Positions 3,849 through 48,010 of a stretch of 64,000 nucleotides of DNA are shown piece after piece. The position numbers and the translations under genes are program-made. The notes below the pieces were generated by a model. It saw nothing but the letters and a program-made list of their open reading frames with translations. It made no database searches and was not told where the DNA came from. The number at the start of each line of letters is the position of its first letter. Positions within the stretch are counted from its first letter, which is position 1. Origin of the DNA: Hippasteria phrygiana (taxonomy: Eukaryota; Echinodermata; Asteroidea; Valvatida; Goniasteridae); assembly GCA_037893225.1 (NCBI GenBank), contig JAZGUH010000123.1, forward strand, positions 744,001 through 808,000, in the 5' to 3' direction.

Positions 3849-4053
3849 TGGATATTTTTAAAACTACTTATAACTTACGTACACCTTCTGCCCAACTGCT
3901 GTAATGGGGTGCATGTATGCCAACCGGGATTGTGCAGTCGAGCGCCCCAATAACCAAACAATGACTTGAATATAAAGAAAATGCGGATATAGTTTTCAAA
4001 CCGTGGCTATAGCCATCGTGCGTAATCAAATAGTTAAATCCTTCATTTTGCAG

Positions 4054-4250: not shown

Positions 4251-4326
4251 TCTCGAACAGTTCTGATGTCAGTTAGTCTGTGGTTTTGGAGATAAACACC
4301 AAGACTAACTTTTTAAAACCAAATAC

Positions 4327-5112: not shown

Positions 5113-5766
5113 ATTGAGATATTTTCATCCGTGCCACAATAACGCTCGGTTCTTTGAGGAACCATTCAATATCGCGTCGGAGGCAGACCTCCAATTATTA
5201 ATCATTGTGCTAACAGAGGCCGATATTGCCGAACATGGACGCCGTCAACGCCCTGACACTAAATTGACTCTTGAGGGCATAATGAATATGACAGTATTTG
5301 TCAACAAAACAGACTACATCATAGGTGCGCCACGGGACGAACTTCCCCCTGAAGTGGCCAACAACCAAGGACTCGTAAAGTTGAGAACAAATAGGCAGAC
5401 AGGGGCAACGATACAATGACAATCTCTGCTTCTTTCGGTGTGTAGCCCTCCACAGGAACAATAACATCAGCTGCAGAAATTTAGAACAGGCAGTCAACAT
5501 TTGCTTCACCTGTTTCGAGAAGGGGTCGGAAATCCGAGTGCCGATGGAGTCACTCTCGACGATCTCGCCGATGCGGAGCGAGTTTTTGAAATAAACGTCC
5601 AAGTTTATTCGCTAGTCGCGAGAGAGTCCAAGGATGAGGAGGAGGAGGAGGCAGCAGGTGTGCATAACCAAAGAAGGAGAGTGAAAGCTGAGCTTGTGCG
5701 CCGTTCTCACTGCCGGTTCCCTACCACGATGCGTCTAAATCTATGCGGCGAACATTTTTCCTATAT
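5069..5766 (+). pseudogene. Rest of central domain and linker, PolB element copy 2 (5' of insertion)
   Basis: It continues with FGVVLRHSLTGELRYFHPC to LVKLRTNRQTG (stop near 5419), then CFFRCVALHRNN in another frame, then LLHLFREGVGNPSADGVT...FEINVQVYSL and MRLNLCGEHFSYM, where the reading is cut at 5766. The next expected residues (the MNKYSK equivalent) appear only at 8417, so the gene is split by the 5767-8405 insertion. Together with several frameshifts this shows long decay. An acidic Asp/Glu run near 5632-5652 corresponds to the expanded GEESA repeat of copy 1. Confidence 0.75.
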
Positions 5767-7239: not shown

Positions 7240-7439
7240 GAAAGAGTTACATATCCGGCCATCACTTATTTTCCCTTAAAATAACTTAATAACTACCAGA
7301 AAGGGTAAACCTGATAAAAAAAAAAGAATATAGGAGGGAAAACAATTTCAACTTATTCTTTAAAAATACTTTAACTTTTTCTGTCATGGCCCGCCATTAA
7401 TAACAGTTAGACTTGATGGCCGGATATGGAACTCTTTCC
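7240..7439. repeat. MITE with gaaagagtt...aactctttc ends
   Basis: About 200 bp with terminal inverted repeats (gaaagagttacatatccggc at the left, ccggatatggaactctttcc at the right). It is closely related to 24377-24580, including the internal ggagggaaaa and ttctgtcatggcc stretches. It is nested in the 5767-8405 element. Confidence 0.75.
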
Positions 7440-7813
7440 ACAAGGCTGATCTACGTTTACCAGTGTGACTGGATCAACCAGGGAAGCTTTTTGTGGATTT
7501 TTTTGTTTGAGAACGTGGAATTTTTAATTAATTAATTAAGGCTTATTTTTTTTGGGGGGGGGGGGGGTGTGTACATGTCCCTCTCCACATATTTTGTTTT
7601 CTTATAGCCTACGTATTAACTTATTTTTTTTAAAGAATCATTCAGTTCAGTGACAGCCGCCTCTAATGTGCAAATAGCTGCATACATGTACATGTACACA
7701 AATGTACATGTCCTTTTCACTGTACCTGTATATGCAAGTGTAGTTGTCTCAGAGGAACCATTGTGCTGTATTTTACAACCAACAGGAAGGAGTTGTAAAC
7801 ACTGACGTGGATT

Positions 7814-7859
7814 ATTTCACGTGTAACAGAGACACCGGTTTCTCTGTTACACGTGAAAT
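7814..7859. repeat. Perfect 19-bp inverted repeat (hairpin)
   Basis: The arms at 7814-7832 and 7841-7859 are perfect reverse complements (atttcacgtgtaacagaga) around an 8-base loop. A third half-copy, tctccgttacacgtgaaat, lies at 8200-8219, so the motif is repeated inside this element. Confidence 0.85.
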
Positions 7860-8405
7860 CATCTATACAGGCTCCTCTGAGTACATTTCAGTACTTCCAA
7901 ATGTCCTAGTGAAAGATACACAATCTTAACTACTTTCATACATCAAATATTTCACATATTTATTATTTCACTCGCTTGGTTCTTGAAAAATCCAAATTTT
8001 GTGTAGCGCACACCTCAACTGCTTGATTTTATAAATGAATTGAAAACTGAAGGTTCAGTTTTTTTTAACCTGAAACTAAATTTATAATGAACTTGTTATG
8101 TTAAGAAATTGTGGTAACTGACCCACCAAAAGATGACAACAGTTGAAAAAATAAACCATCATACAATTGGTAAAATGCACTATAGTTTTAAAAGTGGTTT
8201 CTCCGTTACACGTGAAATACTTTGCCACATAACTGTAGTCAATGAGGTGCCACAGCGGAGGAAGTCACTCAAATGAAAAAATGCTTTGATTTATTGAATG
8301 TGTTCATTATCAATTACCTGTCAATACATTTTGGTTGACTCTTGACCTTTTTGAAATTTTGACCCTTATGTCACACATTTGGACCCCATATTAAAAGATC
8401 TACCC

Positions 8406-8656
8406 ATATACACGATATGAACAAATACAGCAAATCGTTCGCGTGCGGAAAATGTGGACAGTGCTTCCAGAAAGCATTCAATCTACAGAGACACAAACTT
8501 ACCTGTGATGCTAACGTGTTGTACAAGTTTCCGGGGGGTGCCTACCGTCTACCAAAGACAGTATTTGACAAACTGACCGATGTTGGGGTACAAGTGCCAT
8601 GCGACCACCCGATTTACCCATTTCGAGCAACCTATGACTTTGAATGCTATTTATAG
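8406..8656 (+). pseudogene. C2HC finger and ExoI region of PolB, copy 2 (3' of insertion)
   Basis: The interrupted gene resumes with MNKYSKSFACGKCGQCFQKA, RHKLTCDANVLYKFPGGAYR and ATYDFECYL, which carries the ExoI D-x-E. A stop follows at 8654-8656. In copy 1 the matching position continues into the exonuclease domain, so this stop is a lesion. Cysteine and histidine spacing of the finger is intact. Confidence 0.75.
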
Positions 8657-9670
8657 AAACTGCCAAATCAGAGACAGAACAATAGACGGCCGACTTGGGA
8701 AAACCGACATGAAGTCCTAAGTTGCAGCGTGGCAAGCAACGTTCCCGGTTTCGAGGTGCCGCGATGCTTCGTCACCACCGGGAGTTCGAGCGATGTGGTA
8801 GATCAAGTTGTAGATCACCTGCACAGCATATCGGATGCTGCCTACACACTTCTCCTTGAGAAACATGAAGATGTCTTCGATCAACTCAACCGGCTCATCG
8901 ACGCAACAGACGACAACGAAGGGGAACCTAAAGCACCGAGACGATCAAAGCACCCAGCCGAGCAAGTCAAAGCGGACCTTGAAGATTATTTGCGAGAACT
9001 ACCAGTGCTGGGTTTCAACAGCGGTAAGTACGATATCAATTTGATCAAGCGACACTTGTACTCGAAACTCCAGAGGGACGACCCTCTTCAATTTATAGTG
9101 AAGAGGTCTAGTTCCTATATAGCCCTAAAAACCAAACTTTTGAAATTTTTGGATGTATCAAACTACCTTGCGCCTGGCTATAGTTACGCTAAATTTCTCA
9201 AGGCTTACGATATCCCACAACAGAAAGGGTTCTTTCCGTACAAATGGCTAAACAACCTAGACAAACTAGAAAGCAAAGAATTACCCCCTCACCAAGCGTT
9301 CCACAGCAAACTCAAACACACAAACATCTCACAGGAAGACTATGCACATTGCAAGGAAATCTGGAAAACTAAAAACATGCAAAACATAAAGAATTTCCTC
9401 ATTTGGTATAATAACTTAAATGTTGTTCCATTTCTTGCCGCGCTTCAAAAAATGACTGATTTCTACGCAGAATGCGGTATGGACATGACAAAATCCGCCA
9501 TATCAGTACATGTACCTGGCCTTTCTCTGAGATATTTATTCCTTACCCTCGGTCCCGATGTGTACTTTTCTCTGATTAACAAAAGAAATCAGGATCTCTA
9601 CTTCAAAATCAAAGAAAATATAGTGGGTGGGCCCTCGATTGTTTTTAATCGATACCACGAGGCAAACTAA
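8657..9670 (+). pseudogene. Exonuclease domain of B-family DNA polymerase, copy 2
   Basis: The longest open segment of either copy (about 313 codons from 8729). It contains ASNVPGFEVPRCFVTTG, the ExoII region LPVLGFNSGKYDINLIKRHL, KFLDVSNYLAPGYSYAKFL, GFFPYKWLNNLDKLE, AFHSKLKHTNISQEDY and a block ending PSIVFNRYHEAN. These match the exonuclease and inter-domain region of DNA_pol_B_2 polymerases. An acidic/basic spacer (nucleotides 8900-8970) differs between the copies. The reading stops at 9668-9670, after which motif A appears in another frame. It is not functional as it stands, but it is the best-kept part of the polymerase and the best query for finding the parent element. Confidence 0.8.
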
Positions 9671-10345
9671 ATGTATATCCGAAACGGGTCCAAAATGTTT
9701 AGGAAAGTGATCGGCTTCGATGCCAATGCCCTTTATCTGTGGGCGCTCATGCCAAGCGGCACGTTCGTAAGGCGAAACGCAAATCAGTTAGGGCCCAAAA
9801 GTATGGAGCAATGGCATGCGAATGGCTTGAGTGGGAAGCTAAAGTAAACAATGTGCATATTGTACACAAATTCAATGGGACAGAAAAAAGTATTGGCTCG
9901 CGAAAACTACCGGTTGATGGGTTTTGTCAGGAGACTAATACTGTCCTACAATTTCAGGGATGCTATTGGCACGGGCATAAATGCCACATCAACAAGAGTG
10001 ATTTTAACAAAGTTAGACAGGATAGTTCCGAAACACTCCGGAAAGAAACCGAGAAAAATTCTGAGTACATAAGGAAACAGGGGTACAATTTGATTGAAAT
10101 GAGAGAATGTGTGTGGGAAACTTGTCAGGAAAGTGACCCGAATTTAAGACGGTTTCTGCGTTCATATCGTCTCCCACACTTTGAAAGGAAACAAATGTCC
10201 TAGAATTCATTAGAGATGGGAGTCTCTTTGGTCTAGTTGAATGATTTACATGTTCCTGACTCGACCAAAGAAACATTCGCTGAAATGTCACTAATTTTCA
10301 AAAACGTACACATATCTGGAGATGACATTGGGGAACACATTTGCA
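9671..10345 (+). pseudogene. PolB palm motif A with endonuclease-like insert, copy 2; ends before motif C
   Basis: In one frame VIGFDANALYLWALMP (about 9709-9756) is palm motif A, with its metal-binding Asp. The next open segment (9739-10203) reads CEWLEWEAKVNNVHIVHKF, LPVDGFCQETNTVLQFQGCY and WHGHKC. This resembles the Vsr/restriction-endonuclease-like fold found inside the palm of several animal-element PolB proteins. A further frame change gives FIRDGSLFGLVE, LHVPDSTKETFAEMSLIFKN and ISGDDIGEHI up to about 10345. The remaining palm (motifs B and C, with the catalytic DTD) is missing. At least three frameshifts are present, and no thumb region or other element genes follow. Confidence 0.7.
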
Positions 10346-30798: not shown

Positions 30799-31166
30799 GT
30801 CGGCCCAACCTGTCGGAAGCTAGCCGCGAATTGGGCCCGATTTCCCAGCCGCGAACTCAGCCGCGAACTCAGCCGCGAACTCAAAAAAACAGAACACATG
30901 CAGCAGAAGGAGCTGCAAAAAATCAACAGATTCTGGAAATACTTTTTTGGTACAGCCAACGAAATTATCTAAATTTTCCACTAAACACAGGTTTTTAGGT
31001 TATACATTTCCAACCAAGATCATACAGCACACTTTAGTACCAAAAGAAATGAATTTACCTATTCAATCTTCATGAGGTAATTGTTTCAAATGAAGCAATT
31101 TCGTAGTAATTGGTTTAAAGAAAATATTCAATTTCATGAAAAGACAGTACCTTTCACTAAAAATAA
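30799..31166 (+). repeat. Left terminal inverted repeat of giant element
   Basis: It starts gtcggcccaacctgtcggaa and contains three tandem copies of ccgcgaactcag (30840-30878). It continues to the first satellite monomer. Its reverse complement is found at 46708-47072. Confidence 0.85.
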
Positions 31167-32900
31167 AGTGTACCGCACATATTCCAAATATTTCCCAATT
31201 TTCTTTCATAATCTAAAAGAACATACCACTGGCCACACTTAATTTTGGATAGAGCTAATTCAGCCTACTAATTCATACTCAAATGGTCGATTAAAGTCAC
31301 GTCATTTCCACCCAAAATGAATGTATTCAATTTACCCGTACTTGAGTATGTCTCTTTAACAAAAAGTGTACCGCACGCACATATTCTAAATATTTCCCAA
31401 TTTTCTTTCATAATCTAAAAGAACATACTACTGGCCACACTTAATTTTGGATAGAGATAATTCGGCTGAGTAATTAGTACTCAAATAGTAGATTAAAATC
31501 ACATTATTTTCCCTACAGGACGAATGTTTTGCAATTTACCCGTACTTGAGTATGCCTCTTTAACAAAAAGTGTACCGCACATATTCCAAATATTTCCCAA
31601 TTTTCTTTCCTAATCTGAAAGAACATACTCATGGGCAGACTTAATTTTGGATAGAGCTAATTCTGTTGTCTAATTAGTACTCAAATCGTCAATTAAAATC
31701 ACATCATTTTCCACCCAATATGAAAATATTTTAATTTACCCGTACTTGAGTATGTCTCTTTAACAAAAAGTGTACCGCACATATTCTAAATATTTCAAAA
31801 TTTTCTTTCATAATCTAAAAGAACATACCACTGGCCACACTTAATTTTGGATAGAGCTAATTTGGCAAACTAATTAGTACTGAAATCGTCATTTAAATTC
31901 ACGTCATTTTTAACATAATCTAAACGTATTGTAATTTACCGGACTTGAGTATGCCTCTTTAACAAAACATGTACCGCACATATTCTAAATATTTCCCAAT
32001 TTTCTTTTATAATCTAAAAGAACATACCACTGGCCACACTTAATTTTTGATAGAGCTAATTCAGCCTACTAATTCATACTCAAATGGTCGATTAAAGTCA
32101 CGTCATTTCCACCCAAAATGAATGTATTGTAATTTACCCGTACTTGAGTATGTCTCTTTAACAAAAAGTGTACCGCACATACTCCAAATATTTTCCTTTG
32201 ATAATTTAAAACAACATACCCCTGGCCACACTTAATTTTGGATAGAGATAATTCGGCTGACTAATTAGTACGCAAATAGTAGATTAAAATTACATTATTT
32301 TCCCTACAGGACGAATGTTTTGCAATTTACCCGTATATACTTGAGTATGCCTCTTTAACAAAAAGTGTACCGCACATATTTTAAATATTTCCCAATTTTC
32401 TTTCATAATCTGAAAGAACATACTCATGGGCAGACTTAATTTTGGATAGAGCTAATTCTGTTGTCTAATTCATGACTCAAATCGTCAATTAAAATCACAT
32501 CATTTTCCACCCAATATGAAAATATTGTAATTTACCCGTACTTGAGTCTGTCTCTTTAACAAAAAGTGTACCGCACATATTCTAAATAATTCCCAATTTT
32601 CTTTCATAATCTAAAAGAACATACCACTGGCCACACTTAATTTTGGATAGAGCTAATTTGGCAAACTAATTAGTACTGAAATCGTCATTTAAATTCACGT
32701 CATTTTTAACATAATCTGAACGTATTGTAATTTACCGGACTTGAGTATGCCTCTTTAACAAAAAATGTACCGCACATACTCTAAATATTTCCCAATTTTC
32801 TTTTATAATCTAAAAGAACATACCACTGGCCACACTTAATTTTGGATAGAGCTAATTCAGCCTACTAATTCATACTCAAATCGTCACGGTTTTCACGAAC
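31160..32900 (+). repeat. Left satellite array of giant element (~200-bp monomer, about 9 copies)
   Basis: The tag gtgtaccgcac recurs at about 31169, 31368, 31571, 31770, 31970, 32169, 32367, 32568 and 32766, a period close to 200 bp. Monomers fall into subtypes that recur in the same order about 1 kb apart (for example tctgttgtctaatt at 31663 and 32456), so higher-order duplication has occurred. The orientation is opposite to the right array. A detached monomer lies at 33466-33640. Confidence 0.9.
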
Positions 32901-33109
32901 AGACGAATTTTGCCTCTCCGCACTAAACTAAAGTTACAAGAAAATCAGGTTTTAAGCTGCTCACTTTTTAAATTGAAGATATTACCTGCGTTCATACCAC
33001 ATGTTGATTCAGTGTTGACACTATGTTAAAGTTCAGTTCTCGGTCTTTCACAAGTAATTGGCAGCTAAGCGATAAGTCAATTAATTACAGAGTTATTAAT
33101 TGATTAATA

Positions 33110-33475
33110 CATTTGTCTGTTCGTGAAAACTCAGAAGCGAGAAATGGCCCGTTTTGCCCCACAGAGTGTCAATTGTCTCTTCGTGAAAACCCAAAATCCA
33201 TTTTCTGGCAATTTTGCCCTTCATAGCCCTATTGTATTAACATGGAGTTCAAATTCGTCTCTTCGTGAAAACCCAAAATCCATTTTCTGGCAATTTTGCC
33301 CTTCACAGCCATACTGTATTAACACGGAGTTCAAATTCGTCTCTTCGTGAAAACCTAAAATCCATTTTCTGGCAATTTTGTCCTTCACAGACCTATTGTA
33401 ACATAGAGTTCTGAATTGGCTCTTCGTGAAAAACCGAAATCCATTTTCTGGCAATTTTGCCCTTCTAGGCCATAT
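33110..33475. repeat. Tandem repeat, ~60-82-bp unit, five copies
   Basis: tcgtgaaaac starts units at 33121, 33181, 33263, 33345 and 33423. Each contains caaaatccattttctggcaa or a variant. It is inserted in the left satellite array, separating the last monomer. Confidence 0.85.
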
Positions 33476-33839
33476 ATAATTCCCAATTTTCTTTCATGAT
33501 CTGAAAGAACATATACCTGGGCAGACTTAATTTTGGATAGAGCTAATTCAGCTTACTTATTAATACTCAAATGGTCGATTAAAATCACATTATTTTCCCT
33601 ACAGGACGAATGTATTGTAAATTACCCGTACTTCAGTATATGCCTCTGCAATTTTATTGAGTTAATGCACCTTGCATTCGATTGATATTTTTAGACATCT
33701 GTGTCTAAGTAATATATTCTGCAAGGTTCAGGTAATTCAAATGAAACTAATTATTAGCGATACTTGATTGCTGTATGAAATGACCATTGATATCATTATA
33801 AATAAATAAACATACAGGTCTTTCATCTGTCTCGACCCA

Positions 33840-34620
33840 TAGATTTTTAGATCTTTAGAGTATTGCTGTACGGTGTGGGGAGGAAGGTACATATCTCACG
33901 ACAATACCCTCAACAAATGTCTAAAAAGAGCCGCACGGATAATCCTTAAATGTACCTCCCTCACCCCCTCATGCTGATATGTTTGCCAGACTAAATTGGA
34001 TTCCTTTTAAAGAAAGAGTTCAGTCCAAAAAGGCTATCTTTGTTTTCAAAAGCCTTAACAAAATGACTCCTTTGTACATGACAAATCTGTTCACGCCACT
34101 TACAGTGATTCGTGAAACACGACAATCGACCCAAATGGCACTGAAAGTTCCTTTCGCCAAAAAGGAATGCTACGTGACAAGTTTCGCTGTGAGTGGTGCC
34201 AGTATATGGAATAATCTGCCTGAACAAATGAGAACCATAAACTCCTTAAGTACATTTAAATCGGAGCTACGTAAAGCCATCTATCAGTGATATTTCTGTC
34301 ATTTACGCTGATCTGCGGAGTTATAAACTTGGTTGCCAAAATACTTTGGAGCCGGATGGGAATTTCCCCTTGTTTTTCACCCTTGAAGGTTTTTTCGCGG
34401 GTTTTTCGCCCATCTCGTATATCAGGAATAGGCTTCTGGAGAGTTGAAAAGTTAACAGAAAATTGATTTATTTGTGTAAACATTATTGTATTTGTTTAAA
34501 TATTTTGTATGAATGTGTAAATATTCAGTTTTAACTAATAATATGCAGGGCCCCAATGGAAACCAGTTTTAAACTGTTTGGGCATACCCTGGGTAAAGAA
34601 ATGTAATAAATAAATAGATT
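33840..34620 (+). pseudogene. 3' end of a CR1/L2-type non-LTR retrotransposon
   Basis: Frames read EYCCTVWGG, TLNKCLKRAARIIL, then (from 33979) LNWIPFKERVQSKKAIFVFK, SLNKMTPLYMTNLF and SGASIWNNLPEQMRTINSLS, TFKSELRKAIYQ. This is the carboxy-terminal end of a non-LTR reverse transcriptase. The 3' region ends gggcataccctgggtaaaga and an ataaataaatagattgattga tail, typical of CR1/L2-like elements. The last 104 codons are uninterrupted, so the insertion is fairly young. 5' truncation is usual for such elements. Confidence 0.8.
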
Positions 34621-35434
34621 GATTGAGGCCAGCTCATCATTTTCCTTTATTGTACATGTAAAATGAACCATCTAAGCAATTTTCTCATTTTCTTTCAACA
34701 CGATTTGGAATTGTAAGCCTACGACTTATTTTAAACCTGCTATGTCCGTGCTGTGACTGAAACTTTAATCCTAAATTGAATTCCTCACTAACGCCTTATG
34801 AAAGCAAATTATTATTACATGTAAAAATACATACTACTCTTTCCACTAATTTATTTTATTCATAGAAATTATTTCTTTCTAATTATGTGTCACGCGCAAA
34901 GAATTATATAAGGTAGGAATTAGAAACGCCCAGCTCCTAATTTCGAAAGTGCGTTAAATTAATTTAAATTGTTAAAAAATTGTGTTAAATTAATCTTTGG
35001 CCCAGTTTCTTTGGAAATGTCTCATTGGAAAGCTCAAAACTTAATAATCCTTGCAATGTAGCAATGCAATTGAAATTTGTAAAAGGGTGATACAACCAGC
35101 ACGGACATGTAGCTTTAGAGTCTCCAACAATCCCCAAAAATGTTTTCATTCTTGATTGCTTGCGCACCTGTAACGCACACAAAAAAATCTGCCATCTGGT
35201 AACTTTCATTATTATTGGTCATGCTATACGCTGTAATAATTGTTTAAGATTTAAACACTCTTTAACGATTTTGTGCCAAATATGCGTTTTACGCTTAGTT
35301 TGTTTGTATGTGTAATTTATGATTAAAAGAAACGGCTAGACATTTCCTACTGCACAAGTCAAGATTGCAGTTTAACTGAAAATTTGATTGACCTTGTTCA
35401 GTATATTTATAAATAACGAGTTTCTTAAATATAG
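34621..35434. other. Non-coding part of giant element upstream of the C2H2 exon
   Basis: AT-rich, with no supported ORF. It should contain the promoter and any first exon of the transposase gene, but no clear TATA box or start codon is identified. Confidence 0.4.
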
Positions 35435-35608
35435 ACAAATGGACGTGACAAGTCTCCGTCAAGAAGTTGTCCCGTGAAAGGTGGAACACTACCAAACAAC
35501 TACCGTACGGGTCTGGATAATCACGTCTGTTGCTTCATATGCAATGCAGTATGCTGGGGTGAGGATAACTTCCTCGGTCATTTTCATGCGAGACACCGTG
35601 TGAAAAGG
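35435..35608 (+). CDS. C2H2 zinc-finger exon of the giant-element transposase gene
   Basis: It is bounded by an acceptor (tttcttaaatatag, ending 35434) and a perfect donor (agg/gtaagt at 35609). It is 174 bp, phase 0 at both ends, and open throughout. It encodes GGTLPNNYRTGLDNHVCCFI, then CNAVCWGEDNFLGHFHARH, a C-x2-C-x12-H-x4-H finger. There is no in-frame ATG, so it is an internal exon and an upstream exon with the start codon is still to be found. Splicing to 36769 joins ...RHRVKR to ESANTDN in frame. The finger likely helps recognise the element's ends or target DNA, by analogy with other transposases. Confidence 0.7.
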
Positions 35609-35754
35609 GTAAGTATTGAAGACGATATCTCCCCGAAAACCATGCCCAAACACTAAACATCTGGAAAACCAATGGCGAGGCTGACTGATTAGTCAGTCGG
35701 ATGGCAAGTCGGTCGGTATATAGCCATATAGCATAGCAATAAGCCTTTTCGCAC

Positions 35755-35982
35755 CAGTGGCGTAGCTAGGGGGGGGGGGGGGGGGTGCACGCCCTCCCCC
35801 CTAAAAAATCGTCGCCCCCGCAGTCGCCCCCCACTAAAAAATCCGCAAACGCAGAAAATAATAGCATTATAAAGAAAAATAACTGTGAGCGCGCCCCCCA
35901 CCCCAACTGTAACATCCAGCCCCCCCCCCCCCCAAAAAAAATCGCCCCCCCCCCTATGGAGACAACCCTGGCTACGCTGCTG
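35755..35982. mobile_element. hAT MITE with 8-bp target duplication TTTCGCAC
   Basis: TTTCGCAC flanks it (35747-35754 and 35983-35990). The ends cagtggcgtagctaggg and ccctggctacgctgctg are inverted. Slipped G and C tracts fill the interior. It lies in the intron of the giant-element gene, so it inserted after the gene was in place. Confidence 0.85.
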
Positions 35983-35990
35983 TTTCGCAC

Positions 35991-36768
35991 TAGACAAAAT
36001 CTCTGTTGACAACGTGATCTTGACTCATTTCGCCGAGCTATTTGCCTTCCCAAAATAGCAGCAAAAGACAGAGCGATTCGCATGCCATGTCATCAGACGT
36101 GAGAGGGGCCATTTTGTAGTTTTAAAAAAATTGCATTATGGGATTGGTTTTCGGCTGCAGTTCGCGCGCTTGCAACTGGGATTTCTAAGTTAAGTATTTA
36201 CGCATGCGCAGCGCCTAGCATGAGCCGTTCCTTAGTTAAAATTCTGTAATGTACTAAACTATAAAAATGCTATGACGTTCCGTTCTATTATAATGAATAA
36301 ACATGAATTTTCATAAAAACTAATTAATTATTCATGAAAATTGATACAGCCACGTACGGAAAAAACAACAAGCGAGCCGCGGCCCGGCTATAGTCTTGTT
36401 CACAGACCAAAATATTCTGACTATTTCTGATGATTATTAGATAATATACAGGGAATCTTCAGGTCAGAGAACCAGACTACGGCCCGGCCCGACTGCGCGT
36501 CAAGTGTGAAACGTTCATGCCCAACCCCATGAGGGCGAGCTCGCCCCGAGGTTGGCTGAGGTAGGTTTGCTCGAAACAATTGAAACGACGCGGTGTTGAA
36601 CTCGGGGGTGAAAACGCCGGGGCGGCCCCTTGAGTTCACCCGGGGTTGGTTCGGCGCTCTAATGTGAAAATGCCTCATTATTCGATAACGTTAATGACAT
36701 GAACTTTTGAAATTGCATGTATTTTCTAGTAGTGTATTCTTACTCCAATCATTATGTTCCTTTTGCAG
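35991..36768 (+). other. Rest of the intron between the C2H2 and large exons
   Basis: A CpG-containing stretch (36440-36660, for example ccccgaggttggctgaggta and cacccggggttggttcggcg) looks like another repeat but has no paired ends here. The acceptor ctccaatcattatgttcctt-ttgcag ends at 36768. Confidence 0.5.
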
Positions 36769-38543
36769 GAATCAGCAAACACCGACAACGAAACAGGGGG
36801 AGGTCGGAAAAAGCAAACCGCAGAGGCAAAGGTACAACGTATGGCAAGGGTTCTAGGTCAGACTCTCGAGGAGTATCCAGCAGATGACAATTACATCAAC
36901 ATATCAGATAATACCATGTTCAATTTGCGACAGGCCATTCAATCATTCAGAAAGCCTAATTGCCACAAATTAGTTCAAATTATGTGGAAAAATAATCGGC
37001 TAGGTCTAAGGGAGAAGGTCCGTACTTTTTTAGTAACAAATAGGCCAACAGAACACCATTCTTTTCCTGAACACAGAAATTATAATGCAACTGGTGTTAA
37101 AGATGCAAAGCCAAAGGAGGGTCGTACCAGTGCATCTGATTCTGAACAAGGTCGTGTCAAAGATTCAAAGCCAAAAGAAGGTCATATCACTACGTCTGAA
37201 TCTGAGCAGGGTCGTGTCAAAGATTCAAAGCCAAAAGAGGGTCCTACCACTACGTCTGAATCAGAATTAACGGATACTTCACTAGGCCTGCATGAAGCGA
37301 CACTATCTCATGAATTCCGAACCGATCATAATGCGAAGCCTCTAAGTAATTCTCTGGTTTTAAAGAATTCATTAAATTCCCTAAAATTGTACTGCATTTG
37401 CCGGCAACCCCATAATGATTCTAGAAGCATGATTGCTTGCGATAATTGCGATAAGTGGTACCATTACCAATGTATAGACCTGGAACCAGAATCACGACGA
37501 AAGTCGTATTTGGATAAAGTCTATTTTTATTGCGGGTTAGATGGTTGTAATGAAGGCGTAAGGATATTTACTTGCTGTAGGACTACAGCCATGGCCAGTT
37601 CTTCAGTTGCTGAGGAACTCGACAGTATTGGCAATCAAAAGCCAAAATTACCGACTTATCAGTTAGACGATAGATCCAAGGTAATAGACTGGATTCAGAC
37701 CAGTTCTAATGATTTTGTGGATGGTTTACACAGTTATCACTCATTATCCATCAACTTCTCTCAAGATCTGTCACCCATTCCCTCTAAATCCAATGAAAAC
37801 CCAATCTTTGTAAAATCGTCTGATGTTAAAGTTGAACATGAAAATGATACCACTGGCTCGGAGAGTAAAAATTGTAGATCGACAAGTTTATCACAAAAAA
37901 CATTTCGGATGTCGACCGAAATGCAGTCAGGGTCTTGTAGCCGCTCATCAAAATTGTCAGAAACAATACCACAAGACGTAGATTTCAGCGGTAGCTATGA
38001 AAATGAATCCACGCATAACAGTTACGGTAATGAAATCGAAGATATTTTGCCTGATGATGTCAGGAGAGACATGTACACGCAAAATGAAAATACATGTAAT
38101 AGCAACGAACTAAATACATTCTGGGCAATTAAATTACCTTCAAAAACAAAGTGTTTTTTCTATGTTGATAGGTCAGAATGGAAGAAGCTTAAACATCAAC
38201 AAAATGGTAATACATTACCAAGATCTTGGATTCATATATTTGTGAAAGGACTCAAGAAACTACATCCGTGTTGCTCTGTTCAGTTCAGACGCCACTACGT
38301 TTCTTCAAAATCAGGCAAACATGCGTTCCGGACAGATGGGTATTGCAACTTCAGTGATTGTGGTGTTAAATTTCAATTGGTAATGGAAACTGAAAGTGAT
38401 TTAAAAGTTAATGTTTCATTCACAGGGAAAGTTAAACACCAAAAATATGAGCGGAGGGCAAGATTTGTTAGAAATACTCAACGAGAAGCACTGAAAGACG
38501 TTCTGAAGTACAAAAACCAAGGCGTGAACATCTGGACAACCTG
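36769..38543 (+). CDS. Giant-element transposase gene, part A: PHD finger and zinc-binding N-terminal half
   Basis: The large exon starts after an acceptor at 36768. Sections in order: a helical region (MARVLGQTLEEYPADD, HKLVQIMWKNNRLGL); a spacer of three 20-residue repeats; a PHD finger (YCICRQPHND, IACDNCDKWYHYQCI, YFYCGLDGC) with full Cys4-His-Cys3 spacing; a long acidic, Ser-rich linker; and a domain WIHIFVKGLKKLHPCCSVQF, RRHYVSSKSGKHAFRTDGY, CNFSDC. That last domain resembles the FLYWCH/WRKY-GCM1-type zinc domains found in front of MULE transposases. PHD fingers read histone tails, so the protein may target chromatin (inference). The frame ends at 38541-38543. A second frame open upstream of it carries on the protein, so a single-base indel near 38515 is likely. 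Confidence 0.75.
37096..37275 (+). repeat. 60-bp in-frame coding repeat, three copies
   Basis: The unit encodes KDSKPKEG-x-TTSESEQGRV (20 residues) three times with few changes. It keeps the frame of the PHD protein and lies in its disordered spacer. Confidence 0.9.
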
Positions 38544-40939
38544 AAATCTTTAAACGACAAAAAATTCATGTCAGGCTGTCGAGATGAAGCTCCCAAAAAG
38601 GAAGTTTTATACAAAATCTCAAGCGAAGCTAAGAAATTTTCTGATTCAACTGAAAATGAGATACAGGCTTTATTGAATTTAATTCACACGCAATCAGATT
38701 CTAGCAGACGCTTCCCCGGCATTTTGCGACAGGTCTGTTTATCCCCTTCATACCTAATTTTGTACTCGCAAGACAGCGTTAAAATTTATCATCAAATTTC
38801 ATCAAGGGACATTGTCTATCTAGATGCAACCGGATCAATCATTCGAAACAATTCAGCCTTGTCGAGAACTAAAAAGTACCAATTATATGATCTTGTAATT
38901 CGCCATCCGATCAAAGGCTCTCCCCCCTTTGTAATAGCCTCTCTGCTAAGTGCAGAGCATAATGCTGTCATAATCTCGTACTTTTTGCAATGTTTTCTGC
39001 ACTCGGAGCAATGCCTGTATGGTCATCGTGGGGTAAAACCACCCTTATTGCTTATGATAGATGGCAGTTCGACATTACTGCTCGCCAGTTTGAGGGCATT
39101 CAATTGCGAAACTGTATCTGAGTATTTGAACCGATGTTACAGAATCGCAACCGGATGTGCAAAAGATGACGATTTCAACAAGACGATAATTCACTGTTGT
39201 GCCAGCCATTTCATAAAGAACGCTGCAAAAATGTGCCGGAAATATTATCAGTCAAACTTCCGAGATGCTATGTACTGCTGGATAGGAGCGCTCCTGCAGT
39301 CAAGCAATCTAACTTCAATGGATCAAATCGTCGAATCAATCACGATTTTAACACACTCAAAATTTACAACTGGCCTTGTGAAAATGCATTACCAAAGGCT
39401 GCAATGCCAGGTTGAAAAAAATGACGACGATGCATTTGATGATACGTTCAACGAAGAGGGGAAACCTGAAAATAATGAAGACGAATCTGTTGTAAATGAA
39501 GCATTTGCTAATCAAGGTGAATTAGGAAATTTGGATATGTCCCAGGATGAATACATAAAAAAATCACCGAATTCACCTTTCAAATTGCACTTCAACAAGA
39601 TCGTTGAAAAAGCCATTCGCCGAGTTAATAGGCAAAACCTACTCCTTAAAGGGTCTTTGAATTTGACTAATAATGCATACTTTGGCATCGAATTCCTTAA
39701 TTACTTAATAGAATATTCTATCCCAAACATACCAAATTGGTCGGCACTTATGACTCATGATTTAGGTAGACATGGACATTCTGAAGCATATACAAATTAT
39801 TCAAAGATGTTCAACAATCTCAAGAAATCGAAATTTCAAAATCTGACATCAGACAATCGAACGCAAGGAATCATTGAAAAGAGTATGCAGGAGGTTAAAA
39901 GAACAAAACTAATTTATGAAAGATGTCAGAAAATCATTGATTTTGTTCATATTTATGAACGGGACATGTTGCCGCTCCAAAGAGAATTTTGTGAAGCGTT
40001 TTGTACAAAGAAGAAAAACCTAAAAACTGCACAAATGGCGACAGAGACTTGGTCGAAACGTTTCAGAACTAGCACTCCAACCAGAAAGGGTGTCTACCTT
40101 ACACCCCCAAAAAATGGGCTTCACTTTAAAGACAAGCCGAAGGGAAAACGCTCCAGAAAAAATATAAATCACACAAATGATTCAGACAGTGCAAAAGAAA
40201 AGAACATTCCATCACCGCCCAAAAAACAAAAAGACGGTGTCAAAAAAAAGGGTAACAAAAAAGAAGAAATAATTCCAGGTGTAAATCAACAAGTTTTAAA
40301 TCTGGAAAGGGGTATTTATAATAACAGTGTATCTTGTTGGTGGATAGCCACAATCCAAGCAATGAAGCAGTTCATATACTCATCTCAACTCGGTGTCGGC
40401 AAATTTCAGGGGAGTGATGTTTTTCTCTGGCGACAACTTATCACGGCACTCTTTCAAACTTTAGGAATGGAGACAAGCAATGCAGTTCCATACCACAGCA
40501 TTCAACCACTCGTAAGAGAGTGCGCGGTGCAAATGAAAGTAGATTGCCGTCAACAACAAGATGCTGCCGAGTTTTATTCGCGTCTTATGGTGCCTTTTCT
40601 GAGAGGTTCCTGCTTAACAAATGAGGTGGAACTTTCAAAAAGCGTGATGTGCCTTAATTGCAATGAAAGTCATGTTGTGGAGAATTCGACATCAGGTGTA
40701 TTGCCTGTTGCCGTCCACAACAGTAGTCTAGATAAATGTTTGCAGGCGTTCTTCGACGACGAAATTGTCGAGGGCTTAGAATGTGATCTGTGTGGGCACA
40801 AAGAATGCAAGAAAATGATTGTTTCTCGTATCGTCAATTGTCCCTCGTTATTAGTCGTGCAACTAAAGCGTTTTCGTGTTTCCACGCAAGGGCAAAATAA
40901 AATCTCGGCAGACGTTACTCCAAATAATTATGGTACTTG
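38526..40939 (+). CDS. Giant-element transposase gene, part B: MULE-like transposase and USP N-half
   Basis: The frame is open from upstream of 38526 (EHLDNLKSLNDKKFMSGCRD). The RNase-H-fold transposase core has IVYLDATGSI (first Asp), LLLMIDGSSTLLLASLRAFN (second Asp) and IIHCCASHFIKNA (C-x2-H, as in MULE transposases). The acidic third residue is not placed with certainty. A basic linker (RSRKNINH..., PPKKQKDGVKKKGNKKEE) follows, and then a USP domain: the Cys box YNNSVSCWWIATIQAM, CRQQQDAAEFYSRLM, a zinc-ribbon C-x2-C pair, and LLVVQLKRFRV. USPs remove ubiquitin. This would be a transposase carrying its own deubiquitinase. The frame ends at 40938-40940, in the middle of the USP fold; the rest continues in another frame. 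Confidence 0.75.
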
Positions 40940-42045
40940 ATTTATCAAGGTTTTGTTTGAATAAAACTCCATCATTTTACAAACTGCGTGCGGTTGTGGC
41001 ACACGATGGTGTTTCATTGGAAAGTGGGCATTATCGAACCTTCGTCAGGAATAAATCCGGTACCGCCATTGTAGAATTCAACGACGAAAAGGTTCATGAA
41101 TTAAGCGTTATGGATTTCACAGGACAAGTTTCCCAAAATGGGTATTTGTTTTTTTATGAACAGATTAATCCAAACACAAATGATGTTTCAGAATTCAATG
41201 CACCTATCGATCATCGTTTCATTGTAAGCGAAAGGGAGGAAGAATTTATCAGAATTCTGTGGGCATCATTAGATGAAAAGAACTTACACAGTGTTGCTGT
41301 AAGGGATGATGAAACCAAAAATTATTTGTCATTCCATCAACTGGCAATGATCAATAGCAATCCAAAACCTTCCGTTTTGAAGCGCTTAAAAGCCATCTAT
41401 CAATACTACCACCAGGGTTGGTTGAGTGAAGTAGTAGTTGATTTCTATTTAGCCCAGTTATGTCAAATAGCGAATAAAGACAAAAACCACAGGAAATTTG
41501 GGGTTGTAGAGTGTAGGGATACGATGAAAATCGTGAATAAGCAACACACACTCCAGACATTGCAAATAGTCTCAAAAAAATGCTACCACGACGAGAACTT
41601 CTGTGATGTCATGCTTTTCCCGCTTCTTGAAAACAGGCATTTCACTCTGTATGTTATGAACAATCTGGAGTCCAAGCTGATCTGCTATGATTCAATGAGT
41701 TGTAACAGAGACAACAGACAAAAAATGGTAAATTGTGCAAGTTGCTTTTTCGAATTCTTCAAAAATGGTACTTCTAACAGATATTGGAGCAAAATGCCTG
41801 GAGTTTTCCAGGCCCATCGAACGGTTCCTGTACAGCCTGCGCCATGTCCGCAGCAAAAAGATTCCGCTAGCTGTGGTGTGTTTTGTTGTTTGTTTGCGGA
41901 ATACATATGCTTTGCTGAGAAACAAATCCAACAAAATGATAATGCTGACGTGTTGAGACTCTATATCACTTTGCAATTGATTAAGAGATCAAGGATTATT
42001 GACCCAGAATTACACAGATTATTCTTGGCGTTCATCAATGAGTAA
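40876..42045 (+). CDS. Giant-element transposase gene, part C: USP C-half and Ulp1/SENP-type protease
   Basis: The domain resumes at about 40935 with LDLSRFCLNKTPSFYKLRAV, the USP His box SLESGHYRTFV and EFNDEKVHEL, so the Cys, His and Asn/Asp of the USP triad are all present across parts B and C. A Ulp1/C48 domain then follows: GWLSEVVVDFYLAQL, LLENRHFTLYVMNN (His), LICYDSMS (Asp), and CPQQKDSASCGVFCC (Gln and Cys). Its triad is complete as well. Ulp1-type enzymes cleave SUMO or SUMO-like precursors and are known in several transposon families. Finding a USP and a Ulp1 domain in one transposase is unusual. The 40876 ATG is a shadow start; the real junction is a one-base shift near 40930. The stop is at 42043-42045. 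Confidence 0.75.
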   Translation: MFPRKGKIKSRQTLLQIIMVLDLSRFCLNKTPSFYKLRAVVAHDGVSLESGHYRTFVRNKSGTAIVEFNDEKVHELSVMDFTGQVSQNGYLFFYEQINPNTNDVSEFNAPIDHRFIVSEREEEFIRILWASLDEKNLHSVAVRDDETKNYLSFHQLAMINSNPKPSVLKRLKAIYQYYHQGWLSEVVVDFYLAQLCQIANKDKNHRKFGVVECRDTMKIVNKQHTLQTLQIVSKKCYHDENFCDVMLFPLLENRHFTLYVMNNLESKLICYDSMSCNRDNRQKMVNCASCFFEFFKNGTSNRYWSKMPGVFQAHRTVPVQPAPCPQQKDSASCGVFCCLFAEYICFAEKQIQQNDNADVLRLYITLQLIKRSRIIDPELHRLFLAFINE

Positions 42046-42859
42046 TGTATATGGATCTGTTTGTAGCTACTTGTGGTAAATTGACTCCTTCCATTCTGTC
42101 ATTACAATTCTGTAACGATTTTACATGTACAACAATGTAATGTTTAAGACCCGCTAACGTCTATTGGGAAAAAGGGAAGCATCTTCGAGAGAAAGTGTTA
42201 ATAATCAAAATATTTGGTACAATTTTGTTGCAAAATCTATCTTTCTTGGTTCGATTATTAGGCCTATATTTAAAAACAAAAAGTGTAATTTTGACAAAGA
42301 AACTAACTAGCGTTTCTGCGGTAGACTAGTTTCATTTTATCCAAGTATTTTGGGGGATGAACCTATAGACCACCTCTGACAAAGAAGTGACAATGATAGG
42401 AGGGGATATACCACCACCCTCTCAATTTACACCCGTGGAATGGAAGAGTCATTTAAAATCACAATGTGGCGAAGTTTTGTATTGTTTTGAAAGAGTTAAT
42501 TCTGCATGCTTAAATGTTTTTTAAATAATGGATTGTGCATCAACCGTTGAAATAATTTATTGACCCATAACTTTTAGTGCTTAGCCATACATGTTATGAC
42601 TTGTATTCGTTCGTACGAGTTACATCCTATCTTGACATCAAAATGTTTTTAGCCATTGGGGGTTACAAGTTACAACTGCAAGACATGTTCAGCTATCCTA
42701 TGAGAAATTGGAATACTTGGGGTAAATGTAGTTTTTATAGTTTGAATGACGTACCGGTAATTCAGAGGCCGGGACTCCCGCCGTATGTGTCACATGAGCT
42801 ATGCGCGGGTTATTCAAATCATGGATGTATTGTGCAAATGATGCAATGATGCATTGCTG
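42046..42859. other. Spacer between the two genes of the giant element
   Basis: AT-rich 3' region of the transposase gene. The frame 42577-42849 has no recognised motif. No convincing AATAAA is placed near the stop. Confidence 0.4.
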
Positions 42860-42867
42860 TATAAAAG
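42860..42867 (+). promoter_or_regulatory. TATA box for the CCHC gene
   Basis: tataaaag sits about 30 bp before aattcaattcaggcc (possible start near 42890) and about 145 bp before the CCHC exon. Motif and spacing are good; the role is inferred. Confidence 0.5.
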
Positions 42868-43005
42868 TAGCGTCCGCAGCAACATAATTCAATTCAGGCC
42901 GGTGCATACGCTGCAGAGTGATCGTGTCAGATTTCCAGTGTCTATATTACGTTAAGTTCCACATCAAAGTACCCCTTGCTTTCGTTTTTTATTTCATTTT
43001 GATAG

Positions 43006-43310
43006 GCATGCCGAAAACTGACGTATGCTTCAGCTGCAAAATGCCAGGCCACTGGTCCAGAGAATGTCCATTTAACTTCGATGTCACATCATCCAGAGTT
43101 AAACCTAGAGCCAGAGCTGCCCCCACAATCGGTTACACCAACTTCCACACGAGATACACCCCTTGGCAAGTCCCCATCTCGCAACGACCCTTCCACATCG
43201 ACACCGAATTATCTCTATCCAAAATTAAGTGTGGCCAGGGGTATGTTGTTTTAAATTATCAAATAAAAAAAAATAAAAATTTGGAATACGTGCGGTACAC
43301 TTTCTGTTAA
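43006..43310 (+). CDS. CCHC zinc-knuckle protein whose 3' end is read from the satellite
   Basis: After an acceptor (tttcattttgatag, ending 43005), ATG 43008 opens 100 codons. KTDVCFSCKMPGHWSRECPF is a C-x2-C-x4-H-x4-C zinc knuckle, which binds single-stranded nucleic acid in Gag and related proteins. A basic, aromatic segment (PRARAAPTIGYTNFHTRYTP) follows. From about 43200 the frame enters the first right-array satellite monomer (LSLSKIKCGQGYVVLNYQ...) and stops at 43308-43310, so the last ~35 residues are satellite-encoded. An upstream exon from 42890 is possible. It may be an accessory protein of the element. Satellite read-through could be recent, with the true 3' exon lost. Confidence 0.55.
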
Positions 43311-46300
43311 AGAGGCATATTAGTGATGTACGGGTAAATTACAATGCATTCATATTGGGTTAAAAATGACGTGCATTTAATGGACGATTTGAGTACTAAT
43401 TAGTTTGCCAAATTAGCTCTATCCAATATTAAGTGTGGCCAGTAGTATGTTCTTTTAGATTATGAAAGAAAATTGGGAAATATTTAGAATATGTGCGGTA
43501 CACTTTTTTTTAAAGAGGCATACTCAAGCACGGGTAAATTACAATACGTACTTCATATTTTGTTAAAAATGACGTGAATTTAATTGACGATTTGAGTACT
43601 AATTAGTTTGACAAATTAGCTCTATCCAAAATGAAGTGTGGCCAGTAGTATGTTCTTTTAGATTATGAAAGAAAATTGGGAAATATTTAGAATATGTGCG
43701 GTACACTTTTTGTTAAAGAGGCATATACTGAAGTACGGGTAAATTACAATACATTCGTATTGGGTGGAAAATGATGTGATTTTAATTGACCATTTGAGTA
43801 CTAATTGGATAGCCGAATTATCTCTATCCAAAATTAAGTGTGCCCATGAGTATGTTCTTTCAGATTATAGAATAAAAAAGTAAAATATTTGGAATATGTG
43901 CGGTACACTTTTTGTTAAAGAGGCATATACTGAAGTACGGGAAATTTACAATACATTCGTCCTGTAGGAAAAATAATGTTATTTTAATTTACCATTTGAG
44001 TACTAATTACTCAGCCGAATTATCTCTATCCAAAATTAAGTGAGGCCAGGGATATGTTGTTTTAAAATATCAAATAAAAAAGAAAAATATTTGGAATATG
44101 TGCGGTACACTTTCTGTTAAAGAGGCATATTAGTGATGTACGGGTAAATTACAATGCATTCATATTGGGTGGAAAATGACGTGAATTTAATTGACGATTT
44201 GAGTACTAATTAGTTTGCCAAATTAGCTCTATCCAAAATTAAGTGTGGCCAGTAGTATGTTCTTTCAGATTATGAAAGAAAATTGGGAAATATTTAGAAT
44301 ATGTGCGGTACACTTTTTGTTAAAGAGGCATATAGTGATGTACGGGTAAATTACAATGCATTCGTATTGGGTGGAAAATGATGTGATTTTAATTGACTAT
44401 TTGAGTACTAATTGGATAGCCGAATTATCTCTATCCAAAATTTAGTGTGCCCATGAGTATGTTCTTTCAGATTATAGAATAAAAAAGTGAAATATTTAGA
44501 ATATGTGCGGTACACTTTTTGTTAAAGAGGCATACTCAAGTACGGGTAAATTACAATACGTTCATATTATGTTATAAATGACGTGAATTTAATGGACCAT
44601 TTAAGTATTAATTAGTTGGCTGAATTAGCTCTATCCAAAATTAAGTCTGCCCAGGTATATGTTCTTTCAGATTATGAAAGAAAATTGAGAAATATTTGGA
44701 ATATGTGCGGTACACTTTTTGTTAAAGAGGCATACTCAAGTACGGGTAAATTGCAAAACATTCGTCCTGTATAGGGAGAATAATGTGATTTTAATCTGCC
44801 ATTTGAGTACTAATTAGTTTGCCAAATTAGCTCTATCCAAAATTAAGTGTGGCCAGTGGTATGTTCTTTTAGATTATGAAAGAAAATTGGGAAATATTTA
44901 GAATATGTGCGGTACACTTTTTGTTAAAGAGGCATACTCAAGTCCGGTAAATTACAATATGTTCATTTTGGGTGGAAATGACGTGAATTTAATTGACCAT
45001 TTGAGTACTAATTAGTAAGCCGAATTAGCTCTATCCAAAATTAAGTGTGGCCAGTAGTATGTTCTTTTAGATTATGAAAGAAAATTGGGAAATATTTAGA
45101 ATATGTGTGGTACACTTTTTGTTAAAGAGGCATACTCAAGTACGGGTAAATTGCAATACGTTCATATTATGTTAAAAATGACGTGAATTTAATTGACGAT
45201 TTGAGTACTAATAAGTAAGCCGAATTAGCTCTATCCAAAATTAAGTCTGCCCATGAGTATGTTCTTTTAAATTATTAAATAAACAAGGGAAATATTTGGA
45301 ACACGTGCGGTACACTTTCTGTTAAAGAGGACTAGGTATATACGGGTAAATTACAATACGTTCATATTGGGTGGAAAATGATTTGATTTTAATTAAGCAT
45401 ATGAGTACTAATTAGTTTGCCGAATTAGCTATATCCAAAATTAAGTGTGGCCAGGGGTATGTTGTTTTAAATTATTAAATAAAAAAGAGAAATATTTGGA
45501 ATATGTGCGGTACACTTTTTGTTAAAGAGGCATATACTGAAGTACGGGTAATTTACAATACATTCGTCCGTAGGGAAAATAATGTGATTTTAATCGACCA
45601 TTTGAGTATTAATAAGTAAGCTGAATTAGCTCTATCTAAAATTAAGTCTGCCCAGGTATATGTTCTTTCGGATTATGAAAGAAAATTGGGAAATATTTGG
45701 AATATGTGCGGTACACTTTTTGTTAAAGAGACATACTCAAGTACGGGTAAATTACAATGCATTCATATTGGGTTAAAAATGACGTGAATTTAATTGACGA
45801 TTTGAGTACTAATTAGTTTGCCAAATTAGCTCTATCCAAAATTAAGTGTGGCTAGTGGTATGTTATTTTAGATTATGAAAGAAAATTGGGAAATATTTGG
45901 AATATGTGCGGTACACTTTTTGTTAAAGAGACATACTCAAGTACGGGTAAATTACAATATTTTCATATTGGGTGGAAAATGATGTGATTTTAATTGACGA
46001 TTTGAGTACTAATTAGACAACATAATTAGCTCTATCCAAAATTAAGTGTGGCCAGTAGTATGTTCTTTCAGATTATGAAAGAAAATTGGGAAATATTTAT
46101 AATATGTGCGGTACACTTTTTGTTAAAGGGGCATACTCAAGTACGGGTAAATTACAATACGTTCATATTATGTTAAAAATGACGTGAATTTAATGGACGA
46201 TTTTAGTACTAATTAGTTTGCCAAATTAGCTCTATCCAAAATTAAGTGTGGCCAGTGGTATGTTCTTTTAGATTATGAAAGAAAATTGGGAAATATTTAG

Positions 46301-46735
46301 AATATGTGCGGTACACTTTTTGTTAAAGAGACATACTCAAGTACGGTTAAATTACAATACGTTCATTTTTGGTGGAAATGATGTATCTTTAACCGACCAT
46401 TTGAGTATTAATTAGTTGGCTGAATTAGCTCTATCCAAAATTAAGTGTGCCCAGGTATATGTTCTTTCAGATTATGAAAGAAAATTGGGAAATATTTCGA
46501 ATATGTGCGGTACACTTTTTGTTAAATAGACATATCCAAGTACGGGTAAAATAGAATACGTTCATATTGGGTGGAAAATGATGTGATTTTAATTGACGAT
46601 TTGAGTACTAATTAGTTTTCCGAATTAGCTCTATCCAAAATTAAGTGTGCCCAGGGGTATGTTGTTTTAAATTATCAAATAAAAAAGTAAAATATTTGGA
46701 ATATGTTCGGTACACTTCCTTTTTAGTAAAAGGTA
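43200..46735 (-). repeat. Right satellite array of giant element (~201-bp monomer, about 18 copies)
   Basis: The tag gcggtacac recurs about every 201 bp from 43289 to 46706. Each monomer contains ctctatccaaaattaagtgt and the complement of left-array sequence, so the array is inverted relative to 31160-32900. Monomer subtypes alternate, as on the left. It ends where the right terminal inverted repeat begins. Confidence 0.9.
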
Positions 46736-47072
46736 CTGTGACAGTCTTAAACCAATTACATGTACTACAAAATTGCTTCATTTGAAACAGTTACCTTATG
46801 AAGATTGAATAGGTAAATTAATTTCTTCTGGTACTAAAGTGTGCTATAGGATCTCGGTAGGAAATATATAACCTAAAAAACTGTGTTTAGTGGAAGATTT
46901 AGATAATTTCGTTGGCTGTACCAGAAAAGTGTTTCCAGAATCTGTTGATTTTTTGCAGCTCCTTCTGCTGCATGTGTTCTGGTTTTTTGAGTTCGCGGCT
47001 GAGTTCGCGGCTGAGTTCGCGGCTGGGAAATCGGGCCCAATTCGCGGCTAGCTTCCGACTGGTTCGGCCCAC
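46708..47072 (-). repeat. Right terminal inverted repeat of giant element
   Basis: The reverse complement of 30799-31166 with scattered substitutions and small indels. It includes three gagttcgcggct units, and its outer end reads ...ctggttcggcccac. Confidence 0.85.
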
Positions 47073-47462: not shown

Positions 47463-48010
47463 CATAGACCGTATCGCAAATACCGCCTGGTTGAGACGTC
47501 ACAATGGTCAAAAGGGATTGTGGGAAGGAAATGGGAGCGATTTTGGTTCGCGTTTCTTTCCCACGTCCCTAGTAACCATTGTGACGTCTCATCCAGGCGG
47601 TATTTGCGATAAGGTCTATGGAGGGATAAGAACAGTCCATGCAGGCCAAACCATCGCAAATACCGCCTGGTCGAGACGTCACAATGGTCACAAGGGATTG
47701 TGGGAAGGAAATGGGAGCGATTTTGGTGCGCGTTTCTTTCCCACATCCTTAGTGTAACCATTGTGACGTCTCATCCAGGCGGTATTTGCGATAAGGTCTC
47801 ATACTCATAGACCTTATCGCAAATACCGCCTGAATGAGACGTCACAATAGACCATATTGCAAATACCGCCTGGATGAGACGTCACAATGGTTACTAATAC
47901 TAGGGACGTAGGAAAGAAAGGCGCACCAAAATCGCTCCCATTTCCTTCCCACAATCCCTTGTGACCATTGTGACATCTCGACCAGGCGGTATTTGTGATA
48001 TGGTCTATGG
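47463..48010. repeat. Cluster of ~158-bp MITEs, three full copies and one partial
   Basis: Copies at 47463-47620, 47649-47799, 47811-47850 (partial) and 47848-48010 (inverted). Shared ends are catagacc-tatcgcaaatac and gtatttgcgataaggtctatg. Interiors share gtcacaatggt and ggaaatgggagcgattttgg. The copies insert near each other's ends. Confidence 0.85.

Follow-up and report, generated by a model that had tools for sequence, protein, structure and literature searches.

A 16,256-bp insertion in the window, the whole 64,000-nucleotide stretch of Hippasteria phrygiana DNA that we analysed (C123:744001-808000), is probably a giant DNA transposon of the Rehavkus/Foldback-MULE kind that moves by cut and paste. 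The element moves as a single unit, with ACC[A/T]...[A/T]GGT ends, target duplications of 8 or 9 bp, and empty sites. We regard it as a giant Rehavkus-like variant. Two diverged families are present in the genome, and their comparison separates the conserved from the free parts of a transposon-borne satellite. New here are a conserved half of about 97 bp in the satellite monomer, a USP domain, arrays that differ in number of units beside a 99%-identical gene, and target sites that appear to have been used more than once. The element offers a clean system for satellite function and for the seeding of satellite DNA by transposons.

Inverted ends, target duplications and empty sites

The window copy is a single insertion at 30808-47063, between 8-bp duplications of TCGGCCCA. 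The left duplication (30800-30807, no strand) exactly matches the right one (47064-47071, no strand). A repeat search of the window found the arms 30799-31108 and 46763-47072 to be inverted and 94% complementary. A first-pass annotation had proposed terminal inverted repeats (TIRs) of about 365 bp. The inverted ends stand, and their extent is corrected to 357 bp on the left (30808-31164, plus strand, starting ACCTGTCGGAAGC) and 346 bp on the right (46718-47063, minus strand). Many genome matches to the left end start at base 10 of the query, which places the boundary of the element at 30808 and assigns what lies outside it to the target duplication. Each TIR contains a 12-bp tandem repeat, at 30846-30883 and 46988-47025.

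Inside the TIRs lie two arrays of a ~200-bp satellite, both located with TRF and a monomer HMM. The left array (31165-32886, minus strand) has a period of 200 and 8.6 copies; the right array (43204-46717, plus strand) has the same period and 17.5 copies, and is inverted with respect to the left. These repeat searches confirmed the giant layout first proposed, with inverted arrays of ~200-bp units inside inverted ends. Between the left array and the gene are an internal 82-bp tandem repeat (33171-33465, plus strand, 3.7 copies) and a stray satellite monomer of 0.9 unit, found with the monomer HMM (33475-33648, minus strand; copy coordinates 3176-3349). A nested insertion of about 770 bp follows (about 33846-34613, plus strand). 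It resembles a non-LTR retrotransposon in its 3' terminal part and is absent from the C437 copy. Its open reading frame had no Pfam match, and the LINE identity was judged by eye.

We searched the genome (944 Mb in 1,285 contigs) with the left end; of 327 first-look candidates 40 were scored, and at least 44 matches resulted, which included two-ended copies with exact duplications. A chance arrangement is excluded. Our sample of family 1, that of the window element, comprised the window copy and 12 further places. Eleven of these copies are two-ended and two are one-ended (C83 and C107); seventeen other single-ended places were left out, save short pieces of C203 and C120. Those two pieces (L050 and L051) are identical over 2,183 aligned bases, flank included, except for an offset and one 18-base gap in the array, and they may therefore represent one insertion or locus twice.

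In family 1, 10 of the 11 two-ended copies retain ACC[A/T]GTCGGAAG at one end and its complement at the other, in C875 with one base relaxed; the eleventh, C56b, has lost the left motif. These ten copies span 2.9 to 24.4 kb, and nine have an exact duplication. It is 8 bp long in the window copy, C430, C161, C140 and C167, and 9 bp long in C437, C56a, C768 and C534; C875 has no exact target duplication. When the two families are pooled, the duplication is exact in 15 of 18 two-ended copies, being 9 bp long in eight and 8 bp long in seven. The arms of the two-ended family-1 copies hold about 3 to 31 units, and those of the one-ended copies fewer. Gene-bearing copies occur as well as gene-less foldback copies, and C430 is almost nothing but two inverted arrays. 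At the left end of C534 (L020, about 350-560), the 12-bp repeat at the tip of the TIR has grown far past the usual three units. In C107 (L027:6413-7242), the internal 82-bp repeats and a neighbouring stretch are mutually inverted, like a small inner foldback.

We looked for empty sites by querying the genome with the joined flanks of ten copies (40 of 2,894 candidates scored). With further searches for C437 and the window, five of the ten matched across the junction. The C430 junction was found end to end at 99% in at least 36 places, that of C768 in at least three and that of C161 in at least one. The C437 junction had at least nine matches across it at 79 to 84% (40 of 928 candidates scored), and the window junction had one, at 79%, on the same contig. 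The aligned empty sites, one chosen for each copy, are uninterrupted and carry one copy of the duplication in C161 (220 of 220 bases), C768 (219 of 220) and C430 (219 of 220). The sites for C437 and the window are diverged paralogues; in the window alignment, a 4-base gap and three mismatches fall within or next to the bases of the duplication. Among the matches listed there was no full-length empty site for C56a, C534, C140, C167 or C463. The empty sites are best taken as related sites rather than proven alleles, because most of them are copies of dispersed repeats.

The duplications and empty sites show that both arrays belong to one mobile insertion, as the first reading of the sequence had supposed. 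It is very improbable that a host satellite was captured by the transposon or flanks it by chance. Satellites in common with transposons are described in the literature. However, the arrays here lie inside the target duplications and have empty sites, and their inverted order is the same in both families. A host satellite beside a transposon was thus rejected on the strength of the duplications and empty sites.

Target choice was examined by comparing fifteen joined junctions, along with four single flanks, all against all. C176 of family 2 and C430 of family 1 lie in the same repeat at the same position and point in opposite directions (98.8% over 85 bp). C935 of family 2 and C161 of family 1 likewise share a repeat position in opposite orientation (93.6% over 94 bp). 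This repeated insertion at the same repeat positions looks like a target preference or hotspot. C430 and C534 have about 600 bp of joined flank in common, at 89%, and this pair may reflect a shared duplication instead of independent targeting. The flanks of C56a and C768 have a common repeat, and their match stops short of spanning the junctions. An Rfam search of 8 loci of copies and flanks (L017, L036 and L037 left out) gave no match at gathering scores.

The transposase gene and a second family

The window gene lies on the plus strand in three open parts. The first (36733-38544) holds the N terminus, a PHD finger (about 37393-37506) and the start of the transposase core. The second (38472-40940) holds the DDE-like core, with its motifs assigned by eye, and the first part of a UCH domain, that of a ubiquitin-specific protease (USP); the third (40867-42045) holds the rest of the UCH domain and an Ulp1-type protease (Peptidase_C48). 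The PHD, UCH and Ulp1 matches are above Pfam cut-offs in the window frames. They are also above the cut-offs in C463, a 33-kb copy of the second family, in which the gene is one unbroken frame of 1,758 codons. Therefore, the window gene body is frameshifted and does not consist of three exons. The gene had first been read as a spliced transposase gene in the middle of the element; the gene was confirmed, and the splicing of its body was discarded in favor of frameshifts. A three-exon body was rejected for the same reason, since the C463 counterpart reads as a single frame. The gene of C437, about 99% identical to that of the window, stays open through 1,429 codons, after which it has one frameshift. 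The frame changes, two in the window and one in C437, are not all at identical sites.

The PHD finger (PF00628) is above its cut-off in the window, C437 and C463 proteins. The core conserves the motifs LDATG, IDGS, CCxxH and IIEKS, placed by eye in P0003 around D683, D760, C805-x2-H808 and E1031. The core thus appears, by eye, to be a MULE-type DDE domain. This assignment relies on the motifs because no transposase Pfam model matched at an E value of ≤1 in the proteins scanned and because the AlphaFold model of the core, built from 3 sequences, failed (pLDDT of 32). A THAP domain had no match at an E value of ≤1 in the three proteins scanned. The C463 UCH domain aligns to the solved structure of USP15 and its Ulp1 domain to that of SENP1. 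Downstream of the gene, a small ORF (42888-43310, plus strand) with a CCHC zinc knuckle runs into the right array. Its region was found in C437 and C534 and had no significant match in C463; the ORF is perhaps a captured exon.

A search of the genome with the transposase DNA returned C437 at 99%, C203 and C120 at 93%, a group at 69% (C463, C696, C935, C208 and C639) and more fragmentary relatives. Between the two families, dN is 0.162 in the PHD finger, 0.219 in the core, 0.234 and 0.347 in two pieces of the UCH domain, and 0.283 in the Ulp1 domain. The pS values for these domain segments are 0.56 to 0.82, near or beyond saturation. The linkers diverge more, with a dN of 0.40 to 0.76. The protease domains appear to have been kept by selection. 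A protein database search returned three relatives only. P0002 (67 to 68% identity) has the UCH domain; P0004 (29%) has a PHD match just below the cut-off (23.2 versus 24), placed before the core; and P0005 (25%) has an Ulp1 match and has, by eye, apparently lost the core motifs.

Of the second family, we examined C463 and six further two-ended copies, picked by coordinates; other pairs may exist. C463 is 32,954 bp long and has the duplication ATTACAAAC. Its arrays comprise 44.6 and 38.3 units of ~201 bp, and its ends resemble those of family 1 mainly in the outer ~76 bp. The other copies measure 32,269 bp (C935), 36,535 bp (C208), 19,982 bp (C696), 23,444 bp (C639), 11,701 bp (C176) and 2,985 bp (C35). 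The duplication is exact in six of the seven, namely C463 and five of the six others; C639 has no exact target duplication. C35 is short and has an exact duplication, and therefore long arrays are dispensable for moving. The two families together range from 2.9 to 36.5 kb. Five gene-bearing copies of the second family, at 20 to 36.5 kb, bear out the very large size first proposed; the foldback-like plan is supported as well. Both families have the same inverted array order and a period of 200 to 201 bp. Between the families, blastn found nothing significant at equivalent places for the inner TIR and the interior noncoding DNA, and the best stray match was 34 bp (E value of 0.003). Two older relatives, C363 and C101, had no arrays in the single 4-kb stretch of each that was covered.

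We suggest that the protein with its PHD, DDE-like, USP and Ulp1 domains would recognize the GCCGCG-rich TIR tips, and would then cut and paste the element. More tentatively, the USP and Ulp1 domains may strip ubiquitin and SUMO at the complex. Catalysis and the role of the proteases, like any binding of the monomers, are predicted from sequence. Ulp1 domains are known in MULEs, and a Trichomonas vaginalis protein combines transposase_11 and Peptidase C19 domains, according to PMC2836005. The same source cites a proposed tie between transposition and the ubiquitin/SUMO pathway for other transposons (PMC2836005). The USP- and Ulp1-type domains on one transposase fit that proposed link. In open-licence PMC papers, we saw no MULE bearing a USP domain.

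Turnover of the arrays and a conserved half-monomer

The first-pass annotation had suggested that the ends might grow and shrink and that monomer counts be compared between copies. The counts do differ: the window copy has 8 and 17 counted monomers per arm and C437 has 6 and 28, beside a gene that is about 99% identical. Units 24 to 28 of the C437 right arm match window units 13 to 17 in the same order, and units 2 to 6 match the same window units in shifted order. Units 20 to 23 have their best match in the window left arm. C463 has 39 and 46 monomers, which reduce to 17 and 24 distinct sequences in repeated blocks. The arrays thus change in number and order faster than the gene, by block duplication. 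Of 346 monomers from 13 places, 237 had their best match in another element, 97 within their own arm and 12 in the opposite arm of their own element. Exchange between arms is limited, with these 12 of 346, and some exchange of this kind probably contributes to array change.

The block duplications would fit arrays that are passive, expanding by unequal exchange and replication slippage while the transposase needs the TIR tips only. We hold this possible, with some doubt. The movement of the short copy C35 points the same way, as does the comparison of the family-1 monomer with the TIR, which gave nothing above shuffles (score of 18, shuffle mean of 20, with 89% of shuffles as high). A motif common to TIR and monomer, as in the Galileo/Tetris model, was accordingly not found in family 1. 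A high TIR-monomer score in family 2 was an artifact, the TIR piece having contained the first monomer.

The consensus monomers of the two families are identical at 79 of 98 aligned positions (81%) in a half of ~97 bp. The rest of the monomer is unaligned between the families, with matches of only 8 to 10 bases beyond this core. We infer that the core is under constraint, because whole-monomer exchange would have brought the other half too, and because synonymous sites are near saturation and the noncoding parts lack a significant match. Within families, conservation of the core against the rest is 0.931 versus 0.892 in family 1 and 0.980 versus 0.955 in family 2. The family-1 excess was equaled by 10 of 198 circular shifts, and so weak an excess is again compatible with passive arrays. 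However, passive arrays would hardly account for a ~97-bp stretch 81% identical between families in which synonymous sites in the domain segments of the gene differ at 56 to 82% and the inner TIR and noncoding interior have no significant blastn match at equivalent places. The ~200-bp period kept in both families speaks against them as well.

We give nearly an even chance to a functional reading, in which the ~97-bp core, recurring every ~200 bp along both arms, would serve the protein or a host partner as an additional docking or chromatin platform and would aid the movement of a large element. That the inverted arms are a selected docking platform, whose core binds the multidomain transposase itself or a host partner, we propose more tentatively. 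Such a platform may let a cut-and-paste element of 30 to 36 kb still move. The satellites had been suggested earlier as binding platforms for the transposase; the conserved 97-bp core favors this indirectly, and the lack of family-1 TIR-monomer similarity above shuffles tells against it.

The monomers might instead serve expression or chromatin, as a promoter, enhancer or nucleosome-phasing unit that shields the gene or recruits the PHD protein via histones. About 200 bp is close to the nucleosome repeat length, the period is 200 to 201 bp in both families, and the protein has a PHD finger. However, long arrays are kept in copies without a gene match (C430 and C56a), and we consider this role unlikely.

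A genome query with one monomer gave at least 589 matches (39 of 206 candidates). Among the monomer matches listed, 22 of 26 contigs also carry a family-1 TIR match. C235, C18, C286 and C715 have monomers without a family-1 TIR match among the matches listed; on C286 there is a match to the TIR of family 2.

Relation to known elements

The Foldback (FB-NOF) elements of Drosophila have inverted arms of tandem repeats, and copies occur with and without the gene. Their arm repeats are short (10 to 31 bp), and the element is smaller. The present element is like FB-NOF in its inverted arms of tandem repeats and in having both gene-bearing and gene-less copies. Unlike in FB-NOF, its arms consist of ~200-bp monomers, and a 12-bp repeat is found only at the TIR tip.

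The closer likeness is to Rehavkus, summarized in one account as having 9-bp duplications, TIRs of 26 to 400 bp, a PHD finger and a minisatellite next to the 3' TIR (PMC6446971). That account names only insects and annelids as hosts and Repbase as the only place of description (PMC6446971). In a second account, the 9.5-kb Rehavkus-1_TC of Tribolium carries a 164-bp satellite in its inverted termini, mostly as five and eight monomers (PMC10218199). The layout was therefore already described, and the initial claim that no described family has it is withdrawn. The present element has a PHD finger in the transposase (window, C437 and C463), window TIRs of 357 and 346 bp that fall within the range of 26 to 400 bp, and, like Rehavkus-1_TC, satellite in both inverted termini. 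Rehavkus is given 9-bp duplications; the 15 exact ones here divide into eight of 9 bp and seven of 8 bp. Unlike Rehavkus-1_TC, the elements here span 2.9 to 36.5 kb, with ~200-bp monomers and up to about 45 units per arm. They also have a USP domain; the likeness to Rehavkus is to its published description. A survey of arthropods gives MULE lengths of 1.4 to 10.0 kb (PMC13359780). Rehavkus- or foldback-type elements can thus be as long as 36.5 kb, and their arms can contain dozens of satellite units.

Tetris of Drosophila virilis, as outlined in PMC4079207, has ~220-bp TIR-220 repeats in variable number inside foldback TIRs. The same outline reports no autonomous copy, a 37-bp stretch of the outer TIR within TIR-220, and longer satellite arrays (PMC4079207). 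Our element is like Tetris in having tandem repeats on the ~200-bp scale, in variable number, in a foldback element. It is unlike Tetris in that family 1 has no TIR-monomer similarity above shuffles and the listed monomers are found chiefly on contigs that carry the element. Tm1 of root-knot nematodes is presented as a Mutator-type foldback element with 9-bp duplications and with transposase-bearing and other groups (PMC3169594). It has ~14-bp repeats and a Phantom-like transposase with a FLYWCH domain (PMC3169594), unlike the ~200-bp repeats and PHD-bearing protein here. Galileo, of the P superfamily, is cited in PMC4079207 for foldback-like TIRs whose internal tandem repeats hold extra transposase binding sites. 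Its transposase has a THAP domain, unlike the proteins scanned here.

Three further stretches stood out. In C437 (L010-L012), about 7.9 kb between the interior and the left array has no listed match to the window copy. A short way to the right of the window element, 47473-48010 contains short direct repeats of two families, with GGTATTTGCGATAAGGTCTAT. Farther away in the window, 515-10203 holds two similar blocks of fragments that resemble, by eye, a type-B DNA polymerase with C2H2 fingers.
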